Assembly: GCF_004011865.1 (NCBI RefSeq)
Contig: NZ_RKLP01000008.1
Coordinates: 124,001 to 188,000 of the forward strand
Direction: 5' to 3'
Source of the DNA: Prescottella agglutinans
Lineage (GTDB): Bacteria; Actinomycetota; Actinomycetes; Mycobacteriales; Mycobacteriaceae
DNA length: 64,000 nucleotides
Shown: one piece after another, positions 41,745 to 57,842 of the stretch
How positions within the stretch are numbered: the stretch's first letter is position 1
Layout: each line of letters starts with the position of its first letter
Translations under genes and position numbers: made by a program
Notes under the pieces: model-generated
Seen by the model: only the letters and a program-made list of their open reading frames with translations
Told to the model about the DNA's origin: nothing
The model's database searches: none

Positions 41745-42659
41745 GTGTTGAGCCTCGAACGTATCCGCGCGCTCTGCGCGGTGGCCGAGACCGGATCGGT
41801 CGCCGCCGCCGCGAGGCGGCTGCACGTGACGCCGTCCGGAGTCTCACAGCAGTTGGCGAAACTCGAACGCGAGGTGGGGGCGACGCTACTCGAGCCGGAC
41901 GGGCGGGGTGTCCGCCTGACCCCTGCCGGTGAGCTGCTGGCCCGGCGCGGCGCGGAACTGCTGGCGCGGGCGGCGGCGGTCGAGGCCGAGATCGATTCCA
42001 TGCGGGACGAAGTCGTCGGACCGATCCGATTCGGGGCGTTCGTCGCCGCATCGCGGGTGGTGCTGCCTTCCGTCGTCACCGCCCTGCTGTCGCGCTATCC
42101 GGTGCAGGTGTCCGTGGCGGAGGCGGAGACCGAGGTGACCTTGGAGTCCCTCACCCGGCGACGCATCGACATCGGTGTGGTCGACAGTTGGGAGTCGGCG
42201 CCGGTGGATATCCCGATCGGGATGGAATCGAGACTGATACATCGTGATTCGGCAGGTGTGGCGCTGCCCGCGGATCATCCGCTGGTGGGCCGCGGCGCCG
42301 TTCCGCTCGGGGAACTCGCGGAGATGTCGTGGGTGGCGTGGGGTGCGGGCACGGCATTCCGGGACTGGCTCGTGAGAACGCTGCGCGGGCAGGGGTTCGA
42401 GCCCCGGGTCGACTTCGAGGCGTCCGACGTCTCGACGCATCTCGCCTTCGTCGCCGCGGGGCTCTCGGCGGCCCTCGTCCCGCATCTCGCGGTCGACGAC
42501 CTGCCGGCCGGGGTGGCGCTCCTGCCGGCCGACCCACCGTTGCGGCGGGACATCCACGTGGTGTGGCGACCGGACAATGCCGGCCCGGCGGTGCGGGCCG
42601 GCATCGCTGCGGTCGAGGAGGCGTTCGCCCGCAGGCGGTCTCAGTCCCCCGGCGTCTGA
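41745..42659 (+). CDS. LysR-family transcriptional regulator
   Basis: A 304-residue LTTR with N-terminal winged helix (ERIRALCAVAETGSVAAAAR, VTPSGVSQQLAKLEREVG) and effector domain from about residue 90 (PIRFGAFVAASRVVLPSVVT, RRIDIGVVDSWES). The start is GTG 41745, with TTG 41748 possible. It is divergent from the EamA transporter, its probable target. Its last 19 nt overlap the convergent oxygenase gene. Confidence 0.93.
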   Translation: MLSLERIRALCAVAETGSVAAAARRLHVTPSGVSQQLAKLEREVGATLLEPDGRGVRLTPAGELLARRGAELLARAAAVEAEIDSMRDEVVGPIRFGAFVAASRVVLPSVVTALLSRYPVQVSVAEAETEVTLESLTRRRIDIGVVDSWESAPVDIPIGMESRLIHRDSAGVALPADHPLVGRGAVPLGELAEMSWVAWGAGTAFRDWLVRTLRGQGFEPRVDFEASDVSTHLAFVAAGLSAALVPHLAVDDLPAGVALLPADPPLRRDIHVVWRPDNAGPAVRAGIAAVEEAFARRRSQSPGV

Positions 42660-43573
42660 ACCTGCTCGACCCCGAGGTCTCGCGGACGGTAGCCGACGGG
42701 ATAGCCGGGGTAGGTGCGGTTCCCCGGATCGCCGGATCCCGCGGACACCCGCCGCTTCGGGAGCAGGCGCACGACCCCCGACCGGGCCCGCAACCCGGCC
42801 TCCGCGACGGCCCGCACCCGTGCCGACCCCTTCGGAAACCCGAACGCGGTGGACATACGGTCGTCGATCAGCGCATACACCGCGGTGGCGACGGGACGTT
42901 CGAGGAGGCCCGGGTACCAGGACTGGAACAGCCGCAGGGTGTAGGTGCCGATGCGGTGGTTGTCGTCGCTGTAGACGAAGTGCTCGTGTTCGTACTCCGT
43001 CTTGAACCGATGGAACTCCTGGAACGAGTCGGGAATGTCCTTGATACCCATCCTCATTCCGACCTGACGGTAGAAGTGGTACGACGCGAGTCGCTCGTTC
43101 GGGTGCAGGCGACGCCACCCGTAACGGTCGATCCAGTCGATCGGGTCGTACACGAACGTCGACAGCACGTAGCGCATGTCGTCGTTCGAGATCGTGTACC
43201 GGCCGTGCATGCGGTTGACGTTGCGCAGCGACTCGCGCCCGCGCTCCGAGTCGTAGCCGTGTTCCACCAGTTCGCCCATCAGCAGCGCGGTGTCGTCGTA
43301 GCGCTTCTGCGGGCGGTGCTCGAACTCGCCGGTGCGGGCCAGCAGTGCGGAGATGGACGGCACGCAGTAGGTGCGGAACAGCGCGAACTCGAGCGAACGC
43401 TGGTAGTCCCAGGGGAACTCGTAGCCGGCGGTGATGCGGAGGATGTCCTGGTGTCTCGTCTCCGGGTCGAGTCCTTCGATCACCTTCACCCACCCCATCC
43501 GGCCCCGGCCGGGGCGCGGATCGGGGTCGGGTTCGGGGAGGCTGTGGGCGGGTCGTGAACTGGTCAGCGTCAC
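42641..43573 (-). CDS. MpaB/Lcp-type (DUF2236) oxygenase
   Basis: A 310-residue protein of the oxygenase family that includes rubber oxygenase Lcp and fungal MpaB, haem-b enzymes that cleave carbon-carbon double bonds of isoprenoid chains to aldehydes or ketones. Family landmarks are ITAGYEFPWDYQRSLEFALF, YDDTALLMGELVEHGYDSER and HPNERLASYHFYRQVGMRMG; His residues in these helices are candidate haem ligands. There is no signal peptide, so it is probably cytoplasmic, unlike exported Lcp. ATG 43573 lies 4 nt from the aldehyde dehydrogenase stop, forming a tight operon in which the oxygenase could supply the aldehyde. A second family member lies on the opposite strand 3.5 kb away. Confidence 0.85.
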   Translation of the reverse strand: MTLTSSRPAHSLPEPDPDPRPGRGRMGWVKVIEGLDPETRHQDILRITAGYEFPWDYQRSLEFALFRTYCVPSISALLARTGEFEHRPQKRYDDTALLMGELVEHGYDSERGRESLRNVNRMHGRYTISNDDMRYVLSTFVYDPIDWIDRYGWRRLHPNERLASYHFYRQVGMRMGIKDIPDSFQEFHRFKTEYEHEHFVYSDDNHRIGTYTLRLFQSWYPGLLERPVATAVYALIDDRMSTAFGFPKGSARVRAVAEAGLRARSGVVRLLPKRRVSAGSGDPGNRTYPGYPVGYRPRDLGVEQVQTPGD

Positions 43574-43577
43574 GGCG

Positions 43578-45095
43578 TCACCGACCGTGCCGTGCCTTGA
43601 GCATCCACGCCGAGATCTTCATGTCCCGGGCGGACCGCTCGAGGGTGAGCAGATTCAGTGGGGCCGAGAACTTCTGGACGGTGACCGCCTTGGGGTGGCT
43701 GAACTCGCGGAGGCCGTCGGCGCCGTGGATGCGGCCGAATCCGGATTCGCCGATGCCGCCGAACGGCAGCGAGGGGATCCCGGCGAAGCCGAGCACCGAG
43801 TTGACCGAGACCATGCCGGCGCGTAACCGCCCGGCGATGTCCCGGCCGCGGGAGTGGTTGCGGGTGAACACCGACGCACCGAGGCCGTACGACGTCGCAT
43901 TGGCCCGCTCGATGCCCTCGTCGACGTCGCGGACCTTGTTCACGACGACGGTGGGGCCGAACGTCTCCTCGCACACCGCCGACGATTCCTCCGGAACGTC
44001 GGTGAGGACCACCGGGTCGACGAATCGGTCATGGACGGAGTCGATTCCGCCGATCACCGCGCGGGCACCCTTACCGATCGCGTCGGCGATGTGGTTACGG
44101 ACGACGTCCACCTGCCGGGGGAGGGTCATCGGGCCGTAGGTGTCCTCGTCCGACCCGCCCGGGGTGACCCGTTCGACCGCGGCGGTGAGCTTGTCGAGGA
44201 ACTGCCGGTACACCGGTTCGGCCACGTAGATGCGCTCGACACCCGCGCACGTCTGCCCGGCGTTGCCGAATGCGCCGAACGCCGCGAACTCGACGGCCTT
44301 GTCCAGGTCGGCGTCCTCGGCGACCAGCATCGCGTCCTTGCCGCCGCACTCCGCGACCAGCGGGGTGAGGGTCTCGGCGCAGACCGCCATCACCTTCCGG
44401 GCGGTGGGCCCGGAACCGGTGAATGCGATCTTGTCGACGCCGGCCCGGCACAGCGCGGCGCCCGTCGCGCCGAGACCGGTGATCACCTGCAGGACAGGCT
44501 GGGTCGGGGCGAGCGAGGTCCACTTGGCCTCGAGCCACTTTCCGACGCCCGGGGTGAGTTCGCTGGGTTTGAAGACGATCGCGTTCCCGGCGGCGAGCGC
44601 ATACGAGATGGAGCCCATCGGTGTGTACACCGGGTAGTTCCACGGGCCGATGACGCCGACGACGCCGAACGGCTGGTAGCCGAGGGTGGCCGACTGGTTG
44701 GCGCTGACGAGCCCGGACGGGACCCGTCGGGGCTTGAGCACCTTCTTCGCGTTGCGGGCGGCCCAGTCGAGATGCTCGATCGCGAGCATCACCTCGAGCA
44801 GGGCGTCGTCGTGGGGCTTGCCGGTCTCGGCGGAGACGACGCGGGCGAGGTCGTCGGCGTCCGACGCGATCGCCTTCTTGAACTCGAGCAACCAGTCGCG
44901 GCGCCCGCGGAATCCCTGTCCGGCCCACCACTGTGCTGCGCGGCGAGCCCGCTCCACCGCCGCGGTGACGTCGGACTCGGTCATGACGGGGTACTCGGCG
45001 AGAACGGTCCCGGTCCGCGGGTCCAGGCTCGGGAAGGTGGACGGCGCCGAGTCCGGGGATAAGGCGGGGTCGGTGTCGCGCAGTTCTCGGGTCAT
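43578..45095 (-). CDS. NAD(P)-dependent aldehyde dehydrogenase
   Basis: A 505-residue ALDH-superfamily enzyme that oxidises an aldehyde to the acid. The oxyanion Asn is in GPWNYPV (Asn153), the general base is Glu249 (VAECGGKDAM) and the nucleophile Cys283 (GQTCAGVERIY). The C-terminal tail (LLTLERSARDMKISAWMLKA) is longer than in simple ALDHs and resembles the hydrophobic, amphipathic tails of fatty or coniferyl aldehyde dehydrogenases, suggesting a membrane-near lipid aldehyde substrate. It heads a two-gene operon with the DUF2236 oxygenase and is divergent from the acyl-CoA dehydrogenase unit across a palindromic site. Confidence 0.93.
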   Translation of the reverse strand: MTRELRDTDPALSPDSAPSTFPSLDPRTGTVLAEYPVMTESDVTAAVERARRAAQWWAGQGFRGRRDWLLEFKKAIASDADDLARVVSAETGKPHDDALLEVMLAIEHLDWAARNAKKVLKPRRVPSGLVSANQSATLGYQPFGVVGVIGPWNYPVYTPMGSISYALAAGNAIVFKPSELTPGVGKWLEAKWTSLAPTQPVLQVITGLGATGAALCRAGVDKIAFTGSGPTARKVMAVCAETLTPLVAECGGKDAMLVAEDADLDKAVEFAAFGAFGNAGQTCAGVERIYVAEPVYRQFLDKLTAAVERVTPGGSDEDTYGPMTLPRQVDVVRNHIADAIGKGARAVIGGIDSVHDRFVDPVVLTDVPEESSAVCEETFGPTVVVNKVRDVDEGIERANATSYGLGASVFTRNHSRGRDIAGRLRAGMVSVNSVLGFAGIPSLPFGGIGESGFGRIHGADGLREFSHPKAVTVQKFSAPLNLLTLERSARDMKISAWMLKARHGR

Positions 45096-45128
45096 GTCGA
45101 ACTACCTCCGGATCTCCAGTGGGATCGC

Positions 45129-45149
45129 ATCACATATATTTGATGTGAT
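45129..45149. promoter_or_regulatory. palindromic operator between the divergent units
   Basis: ATCACAT (45129-45135) and ATGTGAT (45143-45149) form a perfect 7-bp inverted repeat around a 7-bp AT-rich centre. It is in the only substantial gap between the ALDH-oxygenase and acyl-CoA-dehydrogenase-GntR-oxygenase units. The GntR protein encoded in the second unit is the natural candidate to bind it, which would regulate both directions at once. Confidence 0.65.
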
Positions 45150-45273
45150 TTACTGTGGTGACGCTCACACTATTCGGCCCGGCGAGCGCGGACAACCCCC
45201 CACGCGGGTGTCCGCCCCGATGCGGCCGCAGGGGAATTCGGTAACTCGACTCTTTCCAGGCAGGAGCACGTCA

Positions 45274-46416
45274 ATGACGATCGACTTCACCCCCGAACAG
45301 CACGACTTCGCGCAGGCGGTGGCCGCGTTCTGCCGACGCGAGTGTGGCACCCGCGAGCAGCGGGACGCGCTCACCGGCCGCGGTGAGCACAGCCACAACC
45401 AGGAGCTGTACCTGAAGATGGCCGACCTCGGCTGGCTCGGGATCACCGTCCCCGAGGAGTACGGCGGATCGGGCGGCACCGCGGTCGACATGTGCATCCT
45501 GCTCGAACAGGCCGCGAGGGGGATGGCGCCGATCGGCGGCATCGGGCCGACCCTCATCACCGGGGCGGCGTACGGAAGGTTCGGTACCGAGACGCAGAAG
45601 CGGGCCGTGCTCGGCGGCATCGTGCGCGGCGCTTCCGAGTCGATCTCGATGTCCGAGCCCGAGGCCGGGTCCGACGTCGGCAACCTCACCTGTCGCGCCG
45701 AGAAGGTCTCCGACGGCTGGCTCATCAACGGGCAGAAGACGTGGTGCTCCAACGCGCACTTCGCCGAGAACATCCTGCTCGTGGCCCGAACCGACCGCAC
45801 CGGGTCCAAGCACGAGGGCCTGACGATGTTCCACCTGCCGGCGGACACCCCGGGTCTCAAGATCAGCGGCATCGACACGATGGGCGGCAAGGAGGTCAAC
45901 GACCTCTATCTCACCGACGTCCACCTGCCCGCCGACGCCGTCGTCGGCGAGGTCGGCAACGGGTGGAGTCAGCTGATGACCGGGCTCAACATCGAACGAC
46001 TCATCCTCGGCGCGATGATGCTCGGCACCGCGCAGCGGGCGTTCGACGACGCCCTCGAATTCATCACGCAGCGAAAGCAGTTCGGTCGGCCGGTCGGGAC
46101 ATTCCAGGTGCTGCGTCACCGTGTCGCGGATCTGGCCACCGAGATCGAGTGCACCCGGCTGCTCGTGTACAACACCGCACGGCTGGTCGACGCGAACCCG
46201 ACGAAGCTGTTCCCGCGGGAGGCGTCGATGGTCAAGCTCAAGGCGACCGAGACCGCGAAGAAGGTGGCGCTCGAGGGCATGCAGATGATGGGTGGATACG
46301 GATACGCCACCGAGTTCGACATGGAGGGGCATGTCCGCAGGACGCTCGTGTCGTCGATCTACGGTGGTACCAACGAGATCCAGCGCGACATCATCGGCAA
46401 GACGTACGGGCTGTAG
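45274..46416 (+). CDS. acyl-CoA dehydrogenase
   Basis: A 380-residue flavin acyl-CoA dehydrogenase that would introduce an alpha,beta double bond. FAD/substrate motifs are ISMSEPEAGSDVGNLTCRAE and QKTWCSNAHFAENILL; ERLILGAMMLGTAQRAFDDA is the FAD-binding helix. The C-terminal motif is IYGGTNEIQRDIIGKTYGL: Gly stands where medium-chain enzymes have the catalytic Glu (YEGT), so the base must come from elsewhere, as in isovaleryl-type enzymes. ATG 45274 has CAGGAG upstream. It is first in an operon with the GntR regulator and a DUF2236 oxygenase. Confidence 0.93.
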   Translation: MTIDFTPEQHDFAQAVAAFCRRECGTREQRDALTGRGEHSHNQELYLKMADLGWLGITVPEEYGGSGGTAVDMCILLEQAARGMAPIGGIGPTLITGAAYGRFGTETQKRAVLGGIVRGASESISMSEPEAGSDVGNLTCRAEKVSDGWLINGQKTWCSNAHFAENILLVARTDRTGSKHEGLTMFHLPADTPGLKISGIDTMGGKEVNDLYLTDVHLPADAVVGEVGNGWSQLMTGLNIERLILGAMMLGTAQRAFDDALEFITQRKQFGRPVGTFQVLRHRVADLATEIECTRLLVYNTARLVDANPTKLFPREASMVKLKATETAKKVALEGMQMMGGYGYATEFDMEGHVRRTLVSSIYGGTNEIQRDIIGKTYGL

Positions 46417-46427
46417 GGAGCGTCGAC

Positions 46428-47099
46428 ATGGGTGCGCCGGCACGTCCACTGCGCAGGACGCAGCTCTCCGATTCGGTGGCCACGTACCTGCGCGGTGCGG
46501 TCATGTCGGGTCGTCTGCGGCCCGGTGAGTTCGTGCGCCTGGACGAGACCGCCGCCGAACTCGGCGTGAGCGTCACCCCGGTGCGGGAGGCGCTGCTGAC
46601 CCTGCGGGGCGAGGGCATGGTCGAGTCGGTGCCCAACCGCGGATACGTCGTGTCGCCGCTCGAACGCGACGACGTGCACGACATCTTCTGGTTGCAGGGC
46701 CAGATCACGGTGGAGCTGGCGGTGCGCGCCTCGGGTGTCGCCACGGCCGAGGACCTGACGCGGCTGACCGCGCTCAACGACGTGCTGGGTGAGGCGGTCG
46801 AGGCTTCCGATCCCGAGCGGATCGCCGACGCGGAGTACGAGTTCCACCGCGAACTGTGCCGGATCGGAGGCGGGCCCAAGCTCGCGTGGTTCCTGCTCAA
46901 CGCCGCCCGGTACACGCCCTACCAGCTGTACGCCACCGATCCGGCCTGGGGCTTGCTGGCGGTGGCGTCGCACGCGAGCCTGATCGACGCGATCCGAGCG
47001 CGGGACCGTGAGGCCGTGGTGTCGCACACCCGCGTCCAGTTCGACGACGCCGCACGGCGCCTCGTCGCGCACCTCGAGCGAGTGGGGATATGGAAATGA
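46428..47099 (+). CDS. GntR-family (FadR/FCD subfamily) regulator
   Basis: A 223-residue regulator. The winged helix-turn-helix is at the N-terminus (SDSVATYLRGAVMSGRLRPG, AAELGVSVTPVREALLTLRG) and the C-terminal all-helical FCD domain binds an effector, commonly a carboxylate or acyl-CoA with a metal ion; the His in EYEFHREL and SHTRVQF are likely ligands. ATG 46428 has GGGAG upstream, 12 nt after the acyl-CoA dehydrogenase. Its stop overlaps the next gene's ATG (ATGA). It probably autoregulates and controls the divergent ALDH operon through the palindrome at 45129-45149. Confidence 0.92.
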   Translation: MGAPARPLRRTQLSDSVATYLRGAVMSGRLRPGEFVRLDETAAELGVSVTPVREALLTLRGEGMVESVPNRGYVVSPLERDDVHDIFWLQGQITVELAVRASGVATAEDLTRLTALNDVLGEAVEASDPERIADAEYEFHRELCRIGGGPKLAWFLLNAARYTPYQLYATDPAWGLLAVASHASLIDAIRARDREAVVSHTRVQFDDAARRLVAHLERVGIWK

Positions 47100-47908
47100 C
47101 GAAACCGCTTGTCGTGGAACGCGACACCGGACAGCTCGACCTCGCCGACTTCGTCGGGGAGTCCATGCTGCTGATCGGGGCGGGCGCCACGGTCCTGCTG
47201 CAGCTGGCGTTGCCGGGTGTCGGGCGCGGCGTCGCCGAGCACAGCACCACGCTCGAGCGGCCACTGGACCGGCTGCGGACCACCATGACGTACGTGTACG
47301 CGGTCACCCTCGGCTCCGCCGAGGAGAAGCAGGCCGTGGTCCGGTTGGTGAACCGGGCACACGTCCCGGTGCGGTCGGAGCGGTACAACGCCTTCGACCC
47401 GGAGTTGCAGCTGTGGGTCGCAGCCACCCTGTACCGCAACGGTTCCGACATGTACCAGCGGTTCTTCGGGCCGCTGTCGGATGCCGACGCCGAGCGCCTG
47501 TACCGGCAGTCGGCGGTGTACGGGACGGCGCTACAGGTCCGGGAGGACATGTGGCCGGCCACCCGCACCGACTTCGACGCGTACTGGGACCGGATGATCG
47601 AGACCGCCACCGTGGACGACCAGGTGCGCGCGTACGTGCGCGGGTTGCTCTCCGGCGGCCGGGCGCCGCTGCCGGTGCGGATGACGATGCCGTTGCAGCG
47701 ATTCCTCACGATCGGGCTGCTGCCGCCGCGGATCCGGGACCAGTTCGCGCTGCCGTGGAGCCCTCGCGACCAGCGCCGCTTCGACCGCCTCATGACGGTG
47801 GTGCCGATCCTCTACCGCCGCGTCCCGCGCCCGCTGCGCCAGATCACGGCCACCTACTACCTGCGGGACATGCGCCGACGCCTGGCGCGGAGCCGGCACC
47901 TGATCTGA
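47096..47908 (+). CDS. second MpaB/Lcp-type (DUF2236) oxygenase
   Basis: A 270-residue DUF2236 protein, shorter and only distantly similar to the one at 42641-43573. Landmarks are DFVGESMLLIGAGATVLLQL, TYVYAVTLGSAEEKQAVVR and NAFDPELQLWVAATLYRNGS, then FDAYWDRMIE. ATG 47096 overlaps the GntR stop (ATGA), with a GGGG run at correct spacing; ATG 47090 is the alternative. It may be a haem-dependent oxygenase like Lcp/MpaB, although some members have lost or changed activity. Having two non-identical family members in one regulon suggests different substrates or a heteromeric enzyme. Confidence 0.85.
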   Translation: MTKPLVVERDTGQLDLADFVGESMLLIGAGATVLLQLALPGVGRGVAEHSTTLERPLDRLRTTMTYVYAVTLGSAEEKQAVVRLVNRAHVPVRSERYNAFDPELQLWVAATLYRNGSDMYQRFFGPLSDADAERLYRQSAVYGTALQVREDMWPATRTDFDAYWDRMIETATVDDQVRAYVRGLLSGGRAPLPVRMTMPLQRFLTIGLLPPRIRDQFALPWSPRDQRRFDRLMTVVPILYRRVPRPLRQITATYYLRDMRRRLARSRHLI

Positions 47909-47941
47909 CGCGGACGCGACGTCGCGCTCGGCCGCCCGAGG

Positions 47942-48418
47942 TCAGAGCGCGACGTCGCGTTCGAGGCCGAACCAGAAGTGCTCGCCGCCGTCGAACACCA
48001 ACTTGCCCTTGCCGTTCATGACGCCGATGACGGTGTCGTCGTCGACCTTCTTGAAGTGGTCGAAGACCGGCATGCCGTCGTAGACCATGGTCGCGGTGAT
48101 CTCGCCCCGGAAGACCACCTCCCACAGGCTGGCCTCGCCGTGGCCGGTGCCGATGTCGGAGACCAGTTTTCCGGAATCGTCTCGGCACAGCAGCGGCTGG
48201 ACCTCCGATTCGCTCGTGAACGCCTTCCCGTACCAGTGGATGCGATCGAGCAGCGTGCCGGTTCGGTGGCCGGTGTCGAAAGCGAATCCGCGCCAGCGGT
48301 ATCCGATGAGGTCGATCGGCCGGCACGGCTCGAGGCGCGCCCACAACTCGTCGAGTTCGCGTGGATCGATCCGATCGGTGCGGGCGCGCAAGGCTGTCAC
48401 GTCGTCTCGGGTGGTCAT
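47942..48418 (-). CDS. DUF4334/GXWXG family protein
   Basis: A 158-residue protein with the GXWXG-type motif (IGYRWRGFAFDTGHRTG, about 53-70) and the DUF4334 half (ATMVYDGMPVFDHFKKVDDD, MNGKGKLVFDGGEHFWFGLE). The fold is probably a lipid- or small-hydrophobe-binding barrel; function is not established. ATG 48418 overlaps the stop codon of the beheaded alcohol dehydrogenase fragment just upstream (ATGA), showing that it once formed an operon with that gene. It is convergent with the second oxygenase gene. Confidence 0.82.
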   Translation of the reverse strand: MTTRDDVTALRARTDRIDPRELDELWARLEPCRPIDLIGYRWRGFAFDTGHRTGTLLDRIHWYGKAFTSESEVQPLLCRDDSGKLVSDIGTGHGEASLWEVVFRGEITATMVYDGMPVFDHFKKVDDDTVIGVMNGKGKLVFDGGEHFWFGLERDVAL

Positions 48419-48582
48419 GCGGGATCTCCTGGTTCGTCGGGTGCGGCTGTCGGTACGGCCTTCACCACCTCGCCGGCGTCGACTGCGGCGAGCGTGGTGG
48501 CGATCTCGTGGAAGGGAAAGGTGCGCACGAGCTTCTCGACGGGGAAGCACCCCGCCTGCCAGAGGTGCACGAGATGGGGGAA
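48415..48582 (-). pseudogene. C-terminal remnant of a zinc-type alcohol dehydrogenase
   Basis: The frame reads PHLVHLWQAGCFPVEKLVRT, then FPFHEIATTLAAVDAGEVVK and a short tail, which matches the last 50 or so residues of medium-chain (zinc-type) alcohol dehydrogenases. An in-frame TGA stands directly upstream (48583-48585), there is no start codon, and the catalytic and NAD domains (about 300 residues) are missing. The stop overlaps the ATG of the DUF4334 gene, so the reading frame and operon junction are intact at this end. The missing part is replaced by unrelated DNA with a sulfatase gene. Confidence 0.75.
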
Positions 48583-48719: not shown

Positions 48720-50105
48720 TCAGTGATGAACGGGAACGTGGTCGATTGGAGCGCCCGCGGGAATGAGTGGTTCGCGGGCGAGGCTGGCCTTGTAGTCGCC
48801 GAGGATGCGCCCGGCGTGGTAGGCGACCCAGCTGTGAAGGTACTTGTAGTTGAAGGGCTCACGTTCCTGCGGATCGGTGATCAGGTTGATGATGTGTGGC
48901 GCGGCGAGCGTGCCCACCTCATCGGTCGAGAGCTTCTGGGTCTTCATGACGACCTTGAAGTCCCGCCATTTCACCCCGTAGAGCTCGGCACCCATCCAAT
49001 ACGGGTAGCCGTCACGTGCGGATGCCTCTTGCCTGCCGGTGAGCCACGGCAGCTGATCGACGCCGTCGATCACCCGATCCGAGGGAACCTTCGCACCGGC
49101 CGCGGACAGCAGGGTCGTGAACCAGTCGGTGACATGCATGATGTCGTTCGATACGCGGTCTTGCCCGATGCGCCTGGGCCAGCGGACGATGCACGGTGTT
49201 CGAAGGTTGCCCTCGCCCCCGGCGAAGTACGACCCTTCCCAGTACCCCGGTGAGCCACGCCACGGCAGCATCTCTTCGGGTCCATTGTCGCCGGCGAAGA
49301 CCACCAGGGTGTTGTCGCTGATCCCCAGTTCGTCGAGGAGGTCGAGCACCGTCCCGAAGTCGGAGTCGAGCTCGAGCAGGCTGTCCGCCCAATCGCCCAT
49401 GCCGGATTGCCCCGCGAACTCGCGTCGGGGAATCACGGGCATGTGCATCATCGAGTGGTTGAAGTACAAGAAGAACGGCTCCCGTTCGGCAACCGACGTC
49501 CTGATGAAGGAGTCGGTCCGGGCGAGGTAGTCGACGTCGACGTCGCGGCGCACGTCTTGGGTCATCTGTTCGCCCTCGGTGACGTCGTCGTCGCCAGCCG
49601 CGATGGTGACCATGCGGCTGACCGGGTCGCGGGTGGGGTCGTACCAGGGATCGTCGGGCCACAGGGATTCGTCGTAGGTGCGAGGGGGGCCGCTCCACTC
49701 GACGAAGCCGTGGTCGGTCGGCCAATGACCGGGTCCTTCTCCGACATGCCATTTGCCGTAGACCGCGCATCGATAGCCGGCCTCCGACAACTGGTCCCCC
49801 AACGTTCGTTCCCAGGCCACCAGTCCCCATCCGCCCTGGACGCCGATCGGAACCGAGTGTGTGCCCGAACGCACCGAGTACCGCCCCGTCAGGAAAGCGG
49901 ATCGGGTGGGCGTGCATTGAGCTTCGGGGGCGAAGTTTGTCAGCCGAGTCCCCTGCTCGGCGAAGGCATCGATTCGACGGGTCCAGGCGCCGCGAAAGGG
50001 GCCGCCGCTGTAGCAGCTGATCTCTCCGAAACCGAGGTTGTCGACATGGAAGTACACGATGTTGGGCCGGTTCGAAGCCCCGGTGCTGCCGCTGCCGTCC
50101 GCCAT
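48720..50105 (-). CDS. formylglycine-dependent sulfatase (arylsulfatase family)
   Basis: A 461-residue sulfatase hydrolysing a sulfate ester. The modification motif is CTPTR (Cys64-Arg68), to be converted to formylglycine. Metal ligands fit Asp22 and Asn23 (VDNLGFGE, where many enzymes have two Asp) and Asp273/Asn274 (FAGDNGPEE); Lys118/His120 (YGKWH) and His221 (MMHMP) are further active-site residues. No signal peptide is seen. ATG 50105 has AGGAGG at 50111-50116. No formylglycine-generating enzyme gene is adjacent. It looks like an insertion: the surrounding DNA is less GC-rich by eye and it abuts a truncated dehydrogenase. Confidence 0.92.
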   Translation of the reverse strand: MADGSGSTGASNRPNIVYFHVDNLGFGEISCYSGGPFRGAWTRRIDAFAEQGTRLTNFAPEAQCTPTRSAFLTGRYSVRSGTHSVPIGVQGGWGLVAWERTLGDQLSEAGYRCAVYGKWHVGEGPGHWPTDHGFVEWSGPPRTYDESLWPDDPWYDPTRDPVSRMVTIAAGDDDVTEGEQMTQDVRRDVDVDYLARTDSFIRTSVAEREPFFLYFNHSMMHMPVIPRREFAGQSGMGDWADSLLELDSDFGTVLDLLDELGISDNTLVVFAGDNGPEEMLPWRGSPGYWEGSYFAGGEGNLRTPCIVRWPRRIGQDRVSNDIMHVTDWFTTLLSAAGAKVPSDRVIDGVDQLPWLTGRQEASARDGYPYWMGAELYGVKWRDFKVVMKTQKLSTDEVGTLAAPHIINLITDPQEREPFNYKYLHSWVAYHAGRILGDYKASLAREPLIPAGAPIDHVPVHH

Positions 50106-50633: not shown

Positions 50634-51890
50634 TCATGTATCGGCTCGCTCGCCCAACAGCGTCACGAGCATGAGCGCCTGCACGCGCGCTTCGTTGGCC
50701 TCGCCGGAATCGAAGCGCATCACCCGGCCCACATCGACGACGAGGCTCAGTGCCGCATGGACCAGGAACCTGCACTCGGCAGCGGACAGTTCGGGACGGG
50801 CTTCGCCCAGCAGTCGCGCCCACTCTTCGACGTTGAGTCGCTGCACGTTCCGCAGTTCGGTCCGCTGCTCGTCCGGCAGGCTCCCGATCTCGGCGAAGTA
50901 CACGCTCATCAGTTCGTTCTGTGCGAACGAGAGGCGGACGTACACCTCCACCAGTGCGCCGAGGGCTTCCCTGGGCGTCGTGGAGCCACCGAGTGCGGTT
51001 CCGACGGCCACCGTGAGGCGATCCGCGGCACGGTGGAACGCCGCCGAGAGCAGATCGGACTTGCTCGTGAAGTGCCGGTACACACCCGACGCGTTGATTC
51101 CGGCCGCGCCGCCGATCTCCTCGATGCTCACCTCGTGGTAACCGCGGGCATGGAAGAGCCGGATCGACTCGTTGAGGAGGACTTCCCGCTTGTTGACCAA
51201 CGGGATCCCGGGTGCCCGGGTGGGCGGGTCGACGGGATCCGCGGATGGGGGCAGATCGGTGTATGCGACGTCGCGGCAAGCGTCGAGCAGCAACTTCTCG
51301 AGCCGCCGAGGGGGCAGGCTCGCCCGATGGACGGTGATGCTGCCGACCACACTGAGCATGGCCACACAGACCTGGAAGTTGTCTCGCGCGGGGAGCTCGG
51401 GGCGAAGTTCTGCGAGGGTCGCGCCGATGCGGCGGTTGACCGTTTCGATCACACCGCGGATGTACGCGCGGTCGTCCGCCTCCAGGTACCTGCTCTCCCA
51501 GCGGTACAGGCCGGCGGTGCGACGATTGGCGACGGTGGTGCGCACGGACGCGAGAATCTGTTCGTCGAGTCGGGCCGTGGCGTCCGTCCCGGCTCGGGCC
51601 TCGTCGTCGGCCACCGCCTCCTCGAGCGCCGTCGCGAGGCTCGTGGCCGCGTGCAGGAACAAGGCGTACTTGTTCGGGAAGTGGCGGTACAGCGCGGGAC
51701 CGGAAATGCCTACGGTCGAGGCGATCTCGTCGATGCTGACGGCGTGGTAGCCGCGCTCGCTGAAGGCTTCGGCCGCTGCCGTCGCGATCTGCGCCTTCCG
51801 GTTCTTGGGCCGACGGCGGGGCTCGGTGCCGGTCGGCGTGCCGGGGCGGGCGTGGGCCGCTCGCGCGCGGGTCTCCGTGCGTTCCGCCAC
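50634..51890 (-). CDS. duplicated TetR-family regulator (Mce3R-like)
   Basis: A 418-residue protein with two complete TetR modules in tandem, each with its own helix-turn-helix: residues 31-77 (AEAFSERGYHAVSIDEIAST, VGISGPALYRHFPNKY) and 236-280 (IRLFHARGYHEVSIEEIGGA, AGINASGVYRHFTSKS), separated by ligand-domain helices and a Pro-rich linker (213-230). This unusual layout and size match M. tuberculosis Mce3R (406 residues), repressor of mce3 and of lipid-metabolism genes. GTG 51890 has an ideal AGGAGGTCC at 51892-51900. It is divergent from echA-fadD-mce, the expected target, with a 355-bp shared control region. Confidence 0.9.
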   Translation of the reverse strand: MAERTETRARAAHARPGTPTGTEPRRRPKNRKAQIATAAAEAFSERGYHAVSIDEIASTVGISGPALYRHFPNKYALFLHAATSLATALEEAVADDEARAGTDATARLDEQILASVRTTVANRRTAGLYRWESRYLEADDRAYIRGVIETVNRRIGATLAELRPELPARDNFQVCVAMLSVVGSITVHRASLPPRRLEKLLLDACRDVAYTDLPPSADPVDPPTRAPGIPLVNKREVLLNESIRLFHARGYHEVSIEEIGGAAGINASGVYRHFTSKSDLLSAAFHRAADRLTVAVGTALGGSTTPREALGALVEVYVRLSFAQNELMSVYFAEIGSLPDEQRTELRNVQRLNVEEWARLLGEARPELSAAECRFLVHAALSLVVDVGRVMRFDSGEANEARVQALMLVTLLGERADT

Positions 51891-52245
51891 CGGACCTCCT
51901 GACGTGTGGTGACTGGTCGCCGCAGCATAACGCACAGGTAAGTGCCCGTGCGTCCGGTTCGGTACCGCGAATCCTGTGGAGGCTCCGACTTATTCGCCTG
52001 TACAGCGGGTGTTGACAAGCGGATCGCTCGCCACGAAAGTTAACGGAAATTCCTGCTCTTCTCCCGATTCGGGCCGCCCTCGGGACTCCCCGGGGACGGC
52101 GATCTCGTCGCGGGTGTCCGGAGCGTCGGGCAGGGCCGGGGATCGATCGACGACATTCCGACGTGTGACGCCTCGGTTCGGAGGATGATCGACGAAGCCG
52201 CGACGATCATCCGCAGGCGCCCGCGCGCGACCAGGAGGTGCACGC
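51891..52245. promoter_or_regulatory. control region between the TetR-type regulator and the mce operon
   Basis: A 355-bp gap between divergent genes, long for this genome. It contains a perfect -35-like TTGACA at 52012-52017 facing the operon, although no good -10 is seen 16-18 bp on, and an AGGAGGTG ribosome-binding site just before echA. I could not identify the regulator's operator by eye; an Mce3R-type protein with two DNA-binding domains would be expected to use a long or bipartite site here. Confidence 0.5.
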
Positions 52246-53025
52246 ATGACTACCAGCACAGGGCAGGGGCTGTGCCGCGAACTGCGGAACGGCGTGCTCG
52301 AACTGACGATCTCACGGCCCGAGCGGATGAACGCGGTCGACATGGCGACCATGAGTGAACTCGGTGCAGCGGTCCGCGACGCGGGGAACGACGCCGCGGT
52401 GCGCTCGATCCTCCTCACCGGAGCCGGATCGGCCTTCTGCACCGGTGCGGATCTCGCTGCCGCAGGGCCGAATCCGGCGGACCCGAGCGTCGTCATGGAT
52501 GTCGCGAACGCGGCAGTCCGCGCGATCGTTGAGGTCCCCGTTCCGGTCGTCGCGGCCGTGAACGGACCGGCGGCCGGGGTGGGGGTGTCGCTCGCGCTCG
52601 CCGCCGACCTGACCTACGCCGCCGAGAGCGCCTACTTCCTGCTCGCGTTCGTCGGAATCGGACTGATGCCGGACGGCGGCGCGAGCCTGCTCGTGCCGGC
52701 CGCGATCGGCCGGGCGAGGGCCGCGGAGATGGCACTGCTCGGAGAGCGGGTGGCGGCGGTGGACGCCGATCGCGTCGGCCTGGTGTCGCGGACGCTTCCC
52801 GACGTCGAGTTGTCCGAGCACGCTCGCGCAGTCGCCGCACGACTCGCATCGGGGCCGCGACGCGCGCTCGAACTCACGAAGCGGTCGCTCAATGCGGTCA
52901 CGCTCGACGCGCTGGACCGCGCACTGGAGCGGGAGAAGGAAGGCCAGGCGGAATTGCTCGGGTCCGCCGACTTCGCCGAGGGGGCGGCGGCGATGCTGCA
53001 GAAGCGCCGGCCGAAGTTCCCGTAG
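52246..53025 (+). CDS. enoyl-CoA hydratase/isomerase family protein
   Basis: A 259-residue crotonase. The oxyanion-hole motifs are FCTGADLAAAG (about 64-74) and NGPAAGVGVSLALAADLTYA (about 106-125). At the place of the first catalytic Glu of classical hydratases there is Ala (FVGIGLMPDGG), while the second Glu is kept (AAEMALLGER); the Asp in MPDGG is the usual acid in PaaG-like isomerases. Isomerase or specialised hydratase activity on an acyl-CoA is therefore likelier than the classical reaction. ATG 52246 has AGGAGGTG. It heads the mce transcription unit, although 279 bp separate it from fadD. Confidence 0.9.
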   Translation: MTTSTGQGLCRELRNGVLELTISRPERMNAVDMATMSELGAAVRDAGNDAAVRSILLTGAGSAFCTGADLAAAGPNPADPSVVMDVANAAVRAIVEVPVPVVAAVNGPAAGVGVSLALAADLTYAAESAYFLLAFVGIGLMPDGGASLLVPAAIGRARAAEMALLGERVAAVDADRVGLVSRTLPDVELSEHARAVAARLASGPRRALELTKRSLNAVTLDALDRALEREKEGQAELLGSADFAEGAAAMLQKRRPKFP

Positions 53026-53304: not shown

Positions 53305-54900
53305 ATGGTCACTTCTTCTGCTGTCCCCGCAACCTCGAACGAGGCCCAGCGGTCCCGTCGCAACAACTGGAACAATCAGGTCGCGCGGCACGCCCGGATG
53401 ATCCCGGATCGCGTCGCGCTGCGGTTCCAGGGTGCGTCCGTCACGTGGTCGACGCTGCACACGCGGGTCGAGAGGCTCGCCGACGCGCTGGCGCGGCGGG
53501 GTGTCGGCCTCGGCGACCGGGTCCTGATCCTGATGCTCAACCGCCCTGAGTATCTCGAGGTGGTTCTCGCCACCAATGCGCTCGGCGCCATCGCCGTCCC
53601 CGTGAACTTCCGGATGACCGTGCCCGAGGTTTCATTCCTGTTGCGCGACAGCGGTGCTCGCGTGGTTGTCGCGGACACGACGCTGGCGCCGCTCGCCGAC
53701 GCGGTGCGTGCCGACGTCGGGGGGCCGGACCTGTCGATCGTCGTCGGCGGCGCGACCGAGGGGGACGTACTCGGGTACGAGGACCTCGTCGCCGAGGACG
53801 GCGCCGGGTACCCCGCGATCGACATCCCGGACGACACTCCGGCACTGATCATGTACACCTCCGGGACCACCGGCCGTCCCAAGGGGGCGGTGCTCACCCA
53901 CGGCAACATGGCGGCGCAGGCCCTCACGTGCATTCGGGCGTTCCAGTTGAACCGGCCCGACGACATCGGGTTCTGCGCATCGCCGATGTTCCACATCGCC
54001 GCGTTGGGATCGATGGCACCGAGCCTGATGCTGGGGCTCACCACGGTGATCCATCCGGTCGGTGCGTTCGATCCGGACGTGCTGCTCGACGTCCTCGAGG
54101 AAGAGCAGGTGACCACGCTGTTCCTGGTGCCGGTTCAGTGGCAGGCGGTGTGTGCGGCGCAGCAGACGCAGCCGCGAAAACTGAAGTTGCGCGGCATCTC
54201 CTGGGGCGCGGCGCCCGCATCGGACACCGTCCTGCGGGCGATGGCGGAGACCTTTCCGGACGCGTCGAACGTCGCGGTGTTCGGGCAGACGGAGATGTCC
54301 CCGATCACGTGCGTCCTCGACGGCGAGGACGCCCTCCGCAAACTCGGGTCCGTCGGCCGGGTCATCCCCACCGTGCAGGCCCGCGTCGTCGACGACGACA
54401 TGAACGACGTGGCCCCCGGTGAGGTGGGTGAGATCGTCTACCGCGGACCGACGATGATGCTCGAGTACTGGCAGAACCCGGCGGCCACGGCGGACGCGTT
54501 CCACGGTGGCTGGTTCCATTCCGGCGACCTGGTGCGCGTGGACGACGAGGGCTTCGTCTACGTCGTCGATCGCAAGAAGGACATGATCATCTCGGGCGGC
54601 GAGAACATCTACTGCGCCGAGGTCGAGAACGCGCTCTTCGCGCACCCGAAGATCCTCGAGGCCGCCGTGATCGGTCGCCCGGACCCCAGGTGGGGCGAGA
54701 TCCCGGTGGCGGTGGTCGCGCTGCGTCCCGGGGCCGGGGGCGAACTCACCCTCGACGAGTTGCAGCCGTTCCTCGACGAGCAACTCGCCCGGTACAAGCA
54801 CCCCAAGGTGGTGGTGTGTGTGGAGATGTTGCCGCGCAACGCAAGTGGCAAGGTCGTCAAGGGAGAGCTGCGGAGCGGATCCGCCGTCGTGCAGGGTTGA
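53305..54900 (+). CDS. fadD5: FadD5-like acyl-CoA synthetase of the mce operon
   Basis: A 531-residue ANL-superfamily ligase closely resembling M. tuberculosis FadD5, which precedes the mce1 operon and is linked to recycling of mycolic acids. The ATP loop YTSGTTGRPKG lies about residues 184-194; other motifs are FGQTEMSPIT, GWFHSGDLVRVDDEGFVYVV, DRKKDMIISGGENIYCAEVE and the Lys in LPRNASGKVVKGEL. The N-terminal NWNNQVARHARMIPDRVALR is also FadD5-like. It would activate fatty acids taken up by the adjacent Mce transporter. yrbEA starts 77 nt later. Confidence 0.9.
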   Translation: MVTSSAVPATSNEAQRSRRNNWNNQVARHARMIPDRVALRFQGASVTWSTLHTRVERLADALARRGVGLGDRVLILMLNRPEYLEVVLATNALGAIAVPVNFRMTVPEVSFLLRDSGARVVVADTTLAPLADAVRADVGGPDLSIVVGGATEGDVLGYEDLVAEDGAGYPAIDIPDDTPALIMYTSGTTGRPKGAVLTHGNMAAQALTCIRAFQLNRPDDIGFCASPMFHIAALGSMAPSLMLGLTTVIHPVGAFDPDVLLDVLEEEQVTTLFLVPVQWQAVCAAQQTQPRKLKLRGISWGAAPASDTVLRAMAETFPDASNVAVFGQTEMSPITCVLDGEDALRKLGSVGRVIPTVQARVVDDDMNDVAPGEVGEIVYRGPTMMLEYWQNPAATADAFHGGWFHSGDLVRVDDEGFVYVVDRKKDMIISGGENIYCAEVENALFAHPKILEAAVIGRPDPRWGEIPVAVVALRPGAGGELTLDELQPFLDEQLARYKHPKVVVCVEMLPRNASGKVVKGELRSGSAVVQG

Positions 54901-54977: not shown

Positions 54978-55787
54978 ATGAGCTACGAGTTGCCCACCGG
55001 GAAGGGGCCGGTGCAGGACGTCGCGCTCCAGGGCGGGTATCTCATCGGCTTCTCCGTGCAGGCCCTCGTCGCGCTGGTGCGGTCGGTGGTGCGCGGTCGG
55101 TTGTCGTTGCAGGAGACGGTGACCCAGACCCTGTTCATCGGCCGGGTGAGCACCGGACCGTCGTTGCTGTTGATGATCCCGATCGGCGTGTTCGTCGCGG
55201 TCTCGGTGGGCGAGTTGGCCGGACGCATCGGGGCCGGCGGGTACTCCGGCGCGGTGGTCGCCTTCATCATCGTCGGGCAGGCGTCCGCACTCGTCTGTGC
55301 GCTGATGATGGCCGGAGTCGCCGGCTCGGCGATCTGTACGGATCTCGGCTCGAGGAAGATTCGCGAAGAGATCGACGCCTTGGAGGTCATGGGCATCGAC
55401 GCGCTCGAGCGACTCGTCGCACCCCGACTCGTCGCCGCCGTGATCGTCTCGCTCGCCCTGTGCGCGATGGTGACCTTCGGCGGCGTGATGGCCTGCTACC
55501 TGTACCACATCTACGTCCAACATCTGCCCGCCGGAACGTTTCTGGCCACGTTCAGCCAGTACGGGCGTCTGCCGGACTTCGTGATGGCACTGGTGAAGGC
55601 CGCGATCTTCGCGCTCACCTCGACACTGATCGCCGCGTTCGCGGGCCTGCACGCCAAGGGCGGGCCGCGCGGTGTCGCGGACGCGGTCAACGAGGCCGTC
55701 GTGATCGCGTTCGCGCTGGTCTTCATCGTCAACGCCGCCCTCTCCGCGCTGTACACCGTGGTCGTGCCTGCGGTCGGGGCGTACTGA
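54978..55787 (+). CDS. yrbEA: YrbE-type (MlaE-like) permease, A subunit
   Basis: A 269-residue membrane permease with about five to six helices; with its partner it forms the transmembrane part of the Mce lipid ABC importer. The conserved EExDALxxMG coupling motif appears as REEIDALEVMGIDALERLV (about 134-152), where the ATPase (MceG/Mkl, encoded elsewhere) docks. ATG 54978 follows GGGAGGG. The stop overlaps the start of yrbEB (TGATG), so translation is coupled. Confidence 0.96.
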   Translation: MSYELPTGKGPVQDVALQGGYLIGFSVQALVALVRSVVRGRLSLQETVTQTLFIGRVSTGPSLLLMIPIGVFVAVSVGELAGRIGAGGYSGAVVAFIIVGQASALVCALMMAGVAGSAICTDLGSRKIREEIDALEVMGIDALERLVAPRLVAAVIVSLALCAMVTFGGVMACYLYHIYVQHLPAGTFLATFSQYGRLPDFVMALVKAAIFALTSTLIAAFAGLHAKGGPRGVADAVNEAVVIAFALVFIVNAALSALYTVVVPAVGAY

Positions 55788-56644
55788 TGGTCGGCTTCGA
55801 CACCCGGGTGCGACTGCGCCGCGCCGCCAGGCCCGTGACCGCGGTGTACGGCGGTCTCGCCGACGTCGGCCGGCATGCCACGTTGTTCTGGCGCACCGTC
55901 CTCTCGTTGCCGTATGCGGCCACGCGCTACCGCCGACACGTCCTCGCGCAGATCAGCGAGGTCAGCTTCGGCACCAACTCGTTGCTCTCGGGCGGCGGTA
56001 CCGTCGGCATCGTCTTCGCGATGTCGCTCGCCGCGGCGATGATGCTCGGCGTCGAAACGCAACGAGGGCTCGAACTGATCGGTATGACAACACTTTCCGG
56101 GATGCTGTCCGCGATCGCGAACACCCGGGAGCTCGCCCCTGTCGTGGTTGCGATCGCGCTGGCCGCGAAGGTGGGCACCGGATTCACCGCGCAACTCGGC
56201 GCCATGCGCATCTCCGACGAGATCGACGCACTCGATGCGATGGCGGTGCGGTCGATCCCGTTTCTCGCCGGAACCCGGGTGCTGGCGGCGATGGTGTGCG
56301 TGCTGCCGATCTTCATGATCGGGCTGCTCGCCAGCTATCTGTCGACGCGACTGGTGATCGTGTTCTGGGGCGGCGCTTCCGCCGGCACCTACGACTACTT
56401 CTTCCATCTCGCGCTGTCGCCCGAGGATCTCGTCTACGCCGCGATCAAGGCGATCGTGTTCGCGGGCGTCGTCGCGCTGGTGCACTGCTCGTACGGCTAC
56501 CTCGCGTCGGGCGGACCGGCCGGCGTCGGACAGGCGGCGGGGCGCGCGCTGCGTACCGCCATCCTCGCGATCGGTGTGCTGGACGTCCTCATGACGTTCG
56601 CGCTGTGGGGGCTCGTGCCCACGATCCCCGGAATGGGGGTGTGA
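55787..56644 (+). CDS. yrbEB: YrbE-type (MlaE-like) permease, B subunit
   Basis: A 285-residue partner permease. It has RISDEIDALDAMAVRSIPFL (about 143-162), the same coupling motif, and a series of hydrophobic helices (VGIVFAMSLAAAMMLGVETQ onwards). It pairs with YrbEA and the six Mce proteins to move lipids across the inner membrane. The start is fixed by the TGATG overlap with yrbEA; mceA begins one base after its stop. Confidence 0.96.
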   Translation: MVGFDTRVRLRRAARPVTAVYGGLADVGRHATLFWRTVLSLPYAATRYRRHVLAQISEVSFGTNSLLSGGGTVGIVFAMSLAAAMMLGVETQRGLELIGMTTLSGMLSAIANTRELAPVVVAIALAAKVGTGFTAQLGAMRISDEIDALDAMAVRSIPFLAGTRVLAAMVCVLPIFMIGLLASYLSTRLVIVFWGGASAGTYDYFFHLALSPEDLVYAAIKAIVFAGVVALVHCSYGYLASGGPAGVGQAAGRALRTAILAIGVLDVLMTFALWGLVPTIPGMGV

Positions 56645-56645
56645 C

Positions 56646-57842
56646 GTGGCCCGCCGCACCGGCCCCGGTCAGGCCGCCTTCGCGGCGCGCGGGGCGGTCG
56701 CGGTGCTGGTGGCCCTCGTCGCCGGTGCCGCGATGGTCATGCGCGGCACCGGACAACTGCAACGCGACCCCGAGGTGGTGGTCGGTGTCCCGGCCACGGC
56801 CGGCCTCGTCAGCGGCGAGGCGCCCGTGCGGTACAGCGGCGTCAACGTGGGACGCATCTCGGGCATCGACTCGGGCATCGAATCGTCCCGGGTGCGGTTG
56901 CAGATCGATTCCGACGCCATCGGGTCGATCCCGGCCTCGGTCGTGGTGCGGGTGGTACCCCGAACTTTCTTCGGCGACATCTACATCCAACTCGTCGATG
57001 CTTCCCCCGGCGCCGCCGGCGGGCCCCTGGCCGACGGCGCCGAACTGCGCATCGACACCGGCCCGGACGCGGTGGCGCTCTACGCCGTCTACACCCGGCT
57101 CGTGGACGTGCTCGACCGCATGCAGCCGCAGAAGACGCAGGTGGCGCTGTCGGCGTTGGCGCAGGCGCTGGACGGGCGCGGCGCGACGGTCGGGCGGATC
57201 ATCGACCGGTTGGACGCGGCGTCGCCGAACCTGACTCCGGCCGTGCAGTCGCTGCTCGAGGCCACCCCCGACTTCCGGACCGTGCTGCAGGCCCTGGACG
57301 CCGCCACCCCGGACGTCGTCGCCACGTTGGCCGCCGCCACCGCTGTGTCGCGAACCGTGGTGGAGAACCGGGACGCGGTCGTCGACACCAGCGGTGCCGC
57401 AGCCGGATTCGCCTCCGTCCTCGCCGGATTCGCGGGCGAGCAGCGGGACCGGATCATCACCGTGCTCGACGCGTCCGGCACCGTCCTCGCCACCACGGCC
57501 GCCGACCCCGACGGCCTGGCCGACACCCTCGACCGGGCGCGGACGTTCGGCGCCGCCGGCGCCCGCGTGTTCGCGACCGGGCACTTCGACATCGTCGCGG
57601 TCCCCACCTTCGACGACCCACTGCCGTACGGCGCCGCGGACTGCCCCGGCTACGGCGATCTCCCCGGTGCGTGCGGCCCCAGCGCCGTCGACGGGGGACC
57701 GCAAGAACAGCAGGCGTTGGACGTGCTCCGGGACCGATTGCTCGGGGACGCGACCGGCCCGGACGATCGTGCCGAGCCGAATCCGTTGGCGCCGGTGATG
57801 CTCGGACCGCTGGTGCGCGGCACGGAGGTGCGGGTGCGATGA
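56646..57842 (+). CDS. mceA: Mce family protein A
   Basis: A 398-residue substrate-binding subunit of the Mce lipid transporter, held by one N-terminal helix (AAFAARGAVAVLVALVAGAA). The MCE domain spans about 40-125 (GVPATAGLVSGEAPVRYSGV, NVGRISGI), followed by the long helical region that assembles into a shaft or tunnel, and an acidic, Pro-rich C-terminus. Start GTG 56646, one base after yrbEB. Its stop overlaps mceB (ATGA). Confidence 0.95.
   Translation: MARRTGPGQAAFAARGAVAVLVALVAGAAMVMRGTGQLQRDPEVVVGVPATAGLVSGEAPVRYSGVNVGRISGIDSGIESSRVRLQIDSDAIGSIPASVVVRVVPRTFFGDIYIQLVDASPGAAGGPLADGAELRIDTGPDAVALYAVYTRLVDVLDRMQPQKTQVALSALAQALDGRGATVGRIIDRLDAASPNLTPAVQSLLEATPDFRTVLQALDAATPDVVATLAAATAVSRTVVENRDAVVDTSGAAAGFASVLAGFAGEQRDRIITVLDASGTVLATTAADPDGLADTLDRARTFGAAGARVFATGHFDIVAVPTFDDPLPYGAADCPGYGDLPGACGPSAVDGGPQEQQALDVLRDRLLGDATGPDDRAEPNPLAPVMLGPLVRGTEVRVR

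Follow-up and report, generated by a model that had tools for sequence, protein, structure and literature searches.

Gene organization and the two DUF2236 proteins

The divergent gene cluster described here lies in a 64,000-nt window of the Prescottella agglutinans genome (contig NZ_RKLP01000008.1, positions 124,001 to 188,000; coordinates below are those of the window) and combines two genes of the DUF2236/MPAB_Lcp_cat family (PF09995), denoted D1 and D2, with genes for an aldehyde dehydrogenase (ALDH), an acyl-CoA dehydrogenase (ACAD) and a GntR/FCD regulator. All six genes named in an earlier annotation of this DNA (hereafter, the original prediction) were recovered at the same positions from open reading frames and Pfam domains across the window, and its description of two MpaB/Lcp-type genes in divergent operons around one palindrome, with a 4-nt gap in one operon and an ATGA overlap in the other, was confirmed in the sequence. 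On the reverse strand, the ALDH gene (43578..45095; 505 aa; PF00171, 422.7 bits) is followed after the 4-nt gap by D1 (42641..43573; 310 aa with a GTG start; PF09995, 53 bits). On the forward strand, the ACAD gene (45274..46416; 380 aa; assigned by Pfam) diverges from ALDH and is followed by the regulator gene (46428..47099; Pfam FCD and GntR domains), the stop codon of which overlaps the start of D2 (47096..47908; PF09995, 244.9 bits) as ATGA; the start at 47096 is favored over a possible ATG at 47090 because, in alignment A1, D2 residue 3 is aligned with a Met of the relative in locus L005. D1 and D2 both score above the curated PF09995 cut-off of 23 bits and belong to different branches of the family. 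The predicted operator, a 26-bp palindrome (ATCGCATCACATATATTTGATGTGAT, 45124..45149) proposed from the conservation of its core across loci and genomes, separates the two operons, and the sixth gene, on the reverse strand beyond D2 (47942..48418), encodes a GXWXG/DUF4334 protein with both Pfam domains above cut-off.

To our knowledge, few DUF2236-type proteins have a known function. D1 is predicted, from sequence comparison and a structural model, to be a haem C=C-cleaving oxygenase of the trans-anethole oxygenase branch of DUF2236. In a phmmer search of Protein Data Bank (PDB) sequences, D1 had one match with an E value of 1 or below, the trans-anethole oxygenase of Stenotrophomonas maltophilia (8s1j, E 6.5e-7), and a profile built from 43 sequences matched the same chain at E 1.6e-12, the other match, gluconate dehydrogenase at E 0.79, being due to chance. 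The D1 model (mean predicted local distance difference test score, pLDDT, 86.9) was matched to 8s1j by Foldseek at E 1.1e-7 with a template modelling (TM) score of 0.74-0.76 and 20-21% identity, compared with E 4e-3 or weaker for Lcp. D1 thus shares with 8s1j the predicted fold and the R-x-x-D-T ... N-x-x-H pattern, and differs from it by the low identity, the ALDH neighbor and the GntR- and Mce-linked locus. The residues R91, D94, T95, N120 and H123 are invariant in 43/43 sequences of the D1 alignment, which comprises the window sequence and 42 of the 80 related loci (the best 80 of 92 D1-related loci in the genome collection, loci cut by contig ends being counted too). By spacing, R91, T95 and H123 are equivalent to Arg164, Thr168 and His198 of LcpK30, the alanine mutants of which retain no, 2% and no activity, respectively (PMC5522427).

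The original prediction named Lcp and fungal MpaB as characterized relatives; the nearest solved relative of D1 is instead an aryl-alkene-cleaving trans-anethole oxygenase, and the rubber-type reading of D1 was rejected on the same match. Lcp chains gave no phmmer or profile match to D1 or D2 at E up to 1 in the PDB, the query-normalized TM scores against Lcp (5o1l/5o1m) reach only 0.41-0.56, and the Pfam family is shared with Lcp by family name only. The Arg/Thr/His residues are common to Lcp and D1/D2, and at the position of LcpK30 Lys167, by spacing, D1 has Asp94 and D2 has Thr64. Lcp cleaves rubber and is extracellular (PMC5522427), whereas an export signal is not apparent in D1 or D2 (N-termini read by eye; no signal predictor run), which disfavors an extracellular polymer substrate. 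Nro1 of Gordonia sp. J1A, an actinomycete MpaB-type nitrile rubber oxygenase with a b-haem-like spectrum that releases aldehydes or ketones, resembles D1 and D2 by description, without alignment, but differs in its polymer substrate and in being described as membrane-bound (PMC12724181).

For D2, phmmer and profile searches of the PDB produced no sequence match at E up to 1. The best Foldseek match of the D2 model (pLDDT 85.2) was Lcp (5o1l, E 5.1e-3), followed by 8s1j, with a probability of 1.00 and a query TM of 0.53-0.56 for Lcp and 8s1j alike. In the alignment of D2-type sequences, R61 and H91 are invariant in 25/25, and position 65 (T65 in D2) is Thr in 22 of the 25 and Ser in 3. BLAST finds no significant similarity between D1 and D2 (E 3.2); only a profile comparison relates the two, pairing their Arg/Thr/His residues with a probability of 62%; from the residue alignments and this pairing, both proteins appear to keep the residues of a haem oxygenase in two separate branches. 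The loss of the candidate haem-ligand His, which would have refuted the original prediction, was not observed, the residue being kept in both proteins (43/43 and 25/25). The structural models match characterized members, D1 matching 8s1j and D2, more weakly, 5o1l, 5o1m and 8s1j.

In 11 of 14 genomes of the same genus, D2 has a match of 78% identity or more, and several of the searched genomes hold more than one DUF2236-type gene. The source genome has four PF09995 matches, one of them just beyond the right edge of the window. This third DUF2236 gene (L085:2868-3839) is 43-45% identical to D2; its open frame overlaps the end of a small gene that, by reading, appears to be Mce-associated, and the gene may belong to the Mce operon because it lies on the same strand close behind the Mce genes.

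Conservation of the ALDH-D1 pair and its neighbors

The ALDH gene lies directly upstream of D1 in 65/80 loci. In a second sample, 201 genomes of the bacterial family, ALDH was found directly upstream on the same strand for 74/75 D1 matches of at least 57% identity, the exception being G049. Among the 65 loci with ALDH, ACAD is divergent from and adjacent to it in 39, and a GntR gene lies at most 2.2 kb away in 46; a D2 orthologue follows GntR in 14 loci, or 15 with L005, where 4 nt are common to the GntR and D2 matches. The original prediction proposed to check whether the five genes are conserved together; conservation of the whole set was rejected, all five being present in only 5/80 loci (L005, L007, L009, L010 and L011, from Prescottella, R. 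hoagii and Rhodococcus sp.); what stands of that proposal is the core, D1 behind ALDH. In the PDB, ALDH has a single match at E 1e-70 or better, the succinate-semialdehyde dehydrogenase 8s33, and the chains closest to ACAD are CarC, SCAD, FadE3 and IVD, with similar scores.

The surroundings of ALDH genes of at least 60% identity that stand without a D1 of at least 57% alongside (25 places in the 201 genomes, 12 of them at 60-69% identity) were examined at 10 of these places (L125-L134) and at the G049 locus (L135). L125-L128 have the arrangement palindrome-ALDH//ACAD-GntR with a D2-like gene (41-43%) and no adjacent D1; L130 and L131 have the same arrangement with Mce3R-like, hydratase and FadD5 genes; and in L129:7072-9500 the palindrome (one mismatch) and ALDH are followed about 48 nt on by YrbE/Mce matches, so that palindrome-ALDH occupies there the place ahead of YrbE/Mce that FadD5 has in the window. 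The palindrome was not found in L132-L134 or in L135. The regulated core thus seems to consist of ALDH and GntR, often with ACAD, and the DUF2236 partner beside this core seems to be D1, a D2-like gene or both.

Distant D1 homologues (41-47% identity) were considered as the same locus and rejected, 10/10 lacking ACAD and GntR matches within about 6 kb; one of these, L117, has a 27% DUF4334 match adjoining D1. In five loci from Kutzneria, Amycolatopsis and Umezawaea (L059, L065, L068, L071 and L080), D1 has a GntR gene of 47-52% identity nearby, with no ALDH, ACAD or palindrome seen; L065 and L071 end at a contig edge there.

The palindrome and the GntR regulator

The GntR/FCD protein is predicted to bind the palindrome. 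The 26-bp element has a consensus of about ATCACATCANATATATNTGATGTGAT and, in the source genome, one arm mismatch; in the window, 28 nt separate its end from the ATG of ALDH. A search of the 5.4-Mb source genome for the core, TCANATATATNTGA, gave a single site at up to one mismatch. Of the 65 ALDH-containing loci, 58 have an exact 14-bp core, and one of the 7 lacking it, L084, ends at a contig edge; in mononucleotide-shuffled versions of the 80 loci, 0.33 core matches per round were obtained at up to one mismatch (three rounds). Across 16 genomes, the exact core is present once per genome in 14 and is absent from the 2 whose loci lack the palindrome.

All 46/46 loci with GntR in the cluster carry the palindrome. 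Against the pairing of GntR with this operator, 12 more loci carry the palindrome and have no GntR gene in the cluster. The searched palindrome genomes all have a GntR match of 45% identity or more (13/13, in one of them in two pieces); 11 of these genomes hold one of the 12 GntR-less loci (L067 was left out). Among six genomes without the palindrome, four have a GntR match no better than E ~1e-14 (~30% identity) and two have a 60% copy elsewhere. It is only from co-occurrence across loci and genomes that control of the palindrome by GntR is inferred.

The other regulator considered as a reader of the palindrome was the Mce3R-like double-TetR protein encoded to the right of the cluster (50634..51935, reverse strand), which matches Mycobacterium tuberculosis Mce3R (PDB 9b7y) at E 2.9e-46 over residues 39-424 of 433 and has a match of any identity in 43/80 loci. 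This candidate was rejected: three genomes (G214, G216 and G217) have the palindrome, and their best matches to this protein are just single-domain pieces (E 6e-10 to 1e-16). Mce3R binds a non-palindromic site (PMC11667970), whereas the palindrome in the window tracks GntR and not the double TetR.

Several further occurrences of these sequences were observed. In five Dietzia loci (L070, L073, L075, L083 and L084), the core is present a second time, with one mismatch, at a distance of 50-147 bp from where the double-TetR match has its 5' end, and in L078 such a core is found 67 bp away from the GntR match, on its 5' side. The ALDH-ACAD intergenic region of L056 contains a second, perfect palindrome, TACTGTGGTG-TC-CACCACAGTA; in the window, too, the palindrome is followed by a half-site, TACTGTGGTG.

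Mce surroundings and a possible pathway

To the right of the cluster, the window contains genes that were absent from the account given in the original prediction, namely those for FadD5, an Mce importer and the Mce3R-like regulator. Beyond a sulfatase gene (48720..50105, reverse strand) and the double-TetR gene, an enoyl-CoA hydratase/isomerase (52246..53025, forward strand; Pfam) is followed, on the same strand, by a FadD5-type acyl-CoA ligase (53305..54900; NCBIfam FadD5, 820.8 bits against a cut-off of 733) and then by YrbE/Mce importer genes (54978..63324; the genes tested, for one MlaE permease and five MlaD/Mce proteins, matched Pfam MlaE, MlaD and Mce4_CUP1), so that FadD5 precedes the YrbE and Mce genes as in the Mce operons of M. 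tuberculosis. In the related loci, covered with up to 9 kb of flanking sequence, FadD5 at 50% identity or more was found in 45/80 and YrbE or Mce matches in 17/80. Between the cluster and the sulfatase gene, the DUF4334 gene, a homologue of which was found in 26/80 loci, is abutted by a C-terminal remnant of a zinc alcohol dehydrogenase gene (48418..48582, reverse strand; about 55 codons), identified by tblastn with the L009 gene (ADH_N/ADH_zinc_N; 56% identity over residues 323-377 of 377, E 2e-12); in L007, L009 and L011, a full-length alcohol dehydrogenase gene lies between the double-TetR and DUF4334 genes.

We tentatively read the cluster as a system of inducible intracellular C=C cleavage and aldehyde oxidation under GntR control, perhaps acting on an unsaturated lipid imported by Mce, and give this reading somewhat less than an even chance of being correct. 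D1 would be a b-haem oxygenase acting on an unsaturated lipid or alkene, where addition of O2 across a C=C bond would yield two carbonyl fragments; ALDH, translated just ahead of D1, would, as its family and linkage suggest, oxidize the aldehyde to the acid; a CoA ligase, possibly the adjoining FadD5, might activate the acid; and ACAD together with the enoyl-CoA hydratase might channel the activated acid into beta-oxidation. D2 may be a second DUF2236 oxygenase that accompanies D1 or stands in for it. Judging from co-occurrence, the GntR/FCD protein would sit on the single palindrome and repress both operons, and binding of an acid or acyl-CoA intermediate would lift this repression. The substrate would probably be a lipid imported by the neighboring Mce system, as synteny suggests; candidates are phenylpropenes (given the nearest relative), terpenoids, and unsaturated fatty or mycolic lipids.

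The C=C cleavage part of this reading is supported by the D1 fold, the conserved Arg/Thr/His residues and the D1-ALDH linkage, and the original prediction, which had an unsaturated lipid or terpenoid cleaved to an aldehyde and oxidized to the acid, fits the same evidence (74/75 linkage, Arg/Thr/His, fold). Supply of a lipid by Mce is supported by the FadD5, YrbE/Mce and Mce3R-like neighbors and by the arrangement in L129.

A number of observations weigh against the proposed pathway. On the enzymatic side, a P. putida JYR-1 enzyme likewise called trans-anethole oxygenase was reported in 2013 as a flavoprotein that needs flavin and NAD(P)H (PMC3774712), which conflicts with a haem enzyme, and haem in enzymes of the 8s1j type is inferred from a cited title (Purwani and others, 2024, N Biotechnol). 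The fold support for D2 is weaker than that for D1, its Foldseek E values against 5o1l, 5o1m and 8s1j ranging from 5e-3 to 7e-2, all above 1e-3. With regard to gene content, 26 of the 65 ALDH-containing loci have no ACAD next to ALDH; no YrbE/Mce genes were seen in 63/80 loci within the same flanks; and the 15 loci without an adjacent ALDH belong to other genera (such as Amycolatopsis, Kutzneria, Actinokineospora and Dactylosporangium), two of them (L063 and L072) having ALDH, ACAD and GntR 2-6 kb off. The distant D1 homologues without ACAD and GntR count on the same side; one of these loci, L115, has a 29% ALDH about 4 kb away. With regard to control, the genomes of L006 and L008 lack the palindrome and yet encode a 60% GntR elsewhere.

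The 25 ALDH genes without D1 belong here as well: they imply that ALDH has uses without D1 next door, and thereby favor ordinary aldehyde detoxification and beta-oxidation, with the DUF2236 proteins in another role, such as that of a peroxidase or a sensor, and without cleavage of C=C bonds. The persistence of the palindrome, ALDH, ACAD and GntR without an adjacent D1 in L125-L128, L130 and L131 agrees with such a system. The distant D1 homologue (43-46%) that the genomes of these six loci carry elsewhere also weighs against the proposed pathway. We nevertheless regard detoxification as unlikely, in view of the Arg/Thr/His conservation, the fold resembling trans-anethole oxygenase, the 74/75 D1-ALDH linkage, and the D2-like gene present in 4/6 examined D1-free loci that retain ACAD and GntR.

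About as unlikely is a role in phenylpropene catabolism, in which D1 would be a true trans-anethole/isoeugenol-type oxygenase releasing an aromatic aldehyde that ALDH oxidizes to the aromatic acid, with ACAD and Mce as bystanders. The nearest solved relative of D1 speaks for it, as does the top ACAD match, the caffeyl-CoA reductase CarC (199 bits), though SCAD comes next at 195. However, D1 is just 20-21% identical to 8s1j; ACAD (39/65 loci) and FadD5 (45/80 loci) recur nearby; ALDH stands ahead of the Mce genes in L129; and among the best 25 of the 43 NCBIfam models that match ALDH, aromatic-aldehyde models are included, none above its own cut-off. The least probable alternative is that the cell turns over unsaturated lipids of its own envelope, derived from mycolates, isoprenoids or membranes, which Mce would bring back in and D1 or D2 would cut at the C=C bond. 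The linkage to FadD5 and YrbE/Mce speaks for it, FadD5/Mce1 having been tied to mycolic-acid recycling in M. tuberculosis; against it are the D1 homologues of 60-68% identity in genera such as Amycolatopsis and Kutzneria, which are not known to have mycolates.

Returning to inducible intracellular C=C cleavage, we consider rather doubtful its most elaborate form, a Rhodococcus-type pathway under a single operator in which Mce would import an unsaturated lipid, one or two intracellular haem oxygenases would cut the C=C bond in an ozonolysis-like manner, and ALDH, the ligase and ACAD would burn the fragments. We did not find a published account of this gene arrangement in the open-access literature, most subscription journals lying outside it. 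Purwani (2024) is said, by its title, to concern bacterial haem oxygenases that cleave C=C bonds, and the use of an aldehyde dehydrogenase in rubber degradation has reportedly been published, again by title. Enzymes of the DUF2236 family that cleave C=C bonds are already published (Nro1, PMC12724181; Lcp, PMC5522427).

At this locus, a DUF2236 protein is tied to one enzymatic partner, has a predicted dedicated operator and may have a route of supply, and the substrate and the regulator are therefore directly testable. If the Mce link holds, it would point to a cargo of Mce and suggest that lipids are degraded in part by oxidative cleavage of C=C bonds inside the cell. The pathway under a single operator, if real, would mean a new catabolic role for Mce transport and for the many DUF2236 paralogues of actinomycetes.

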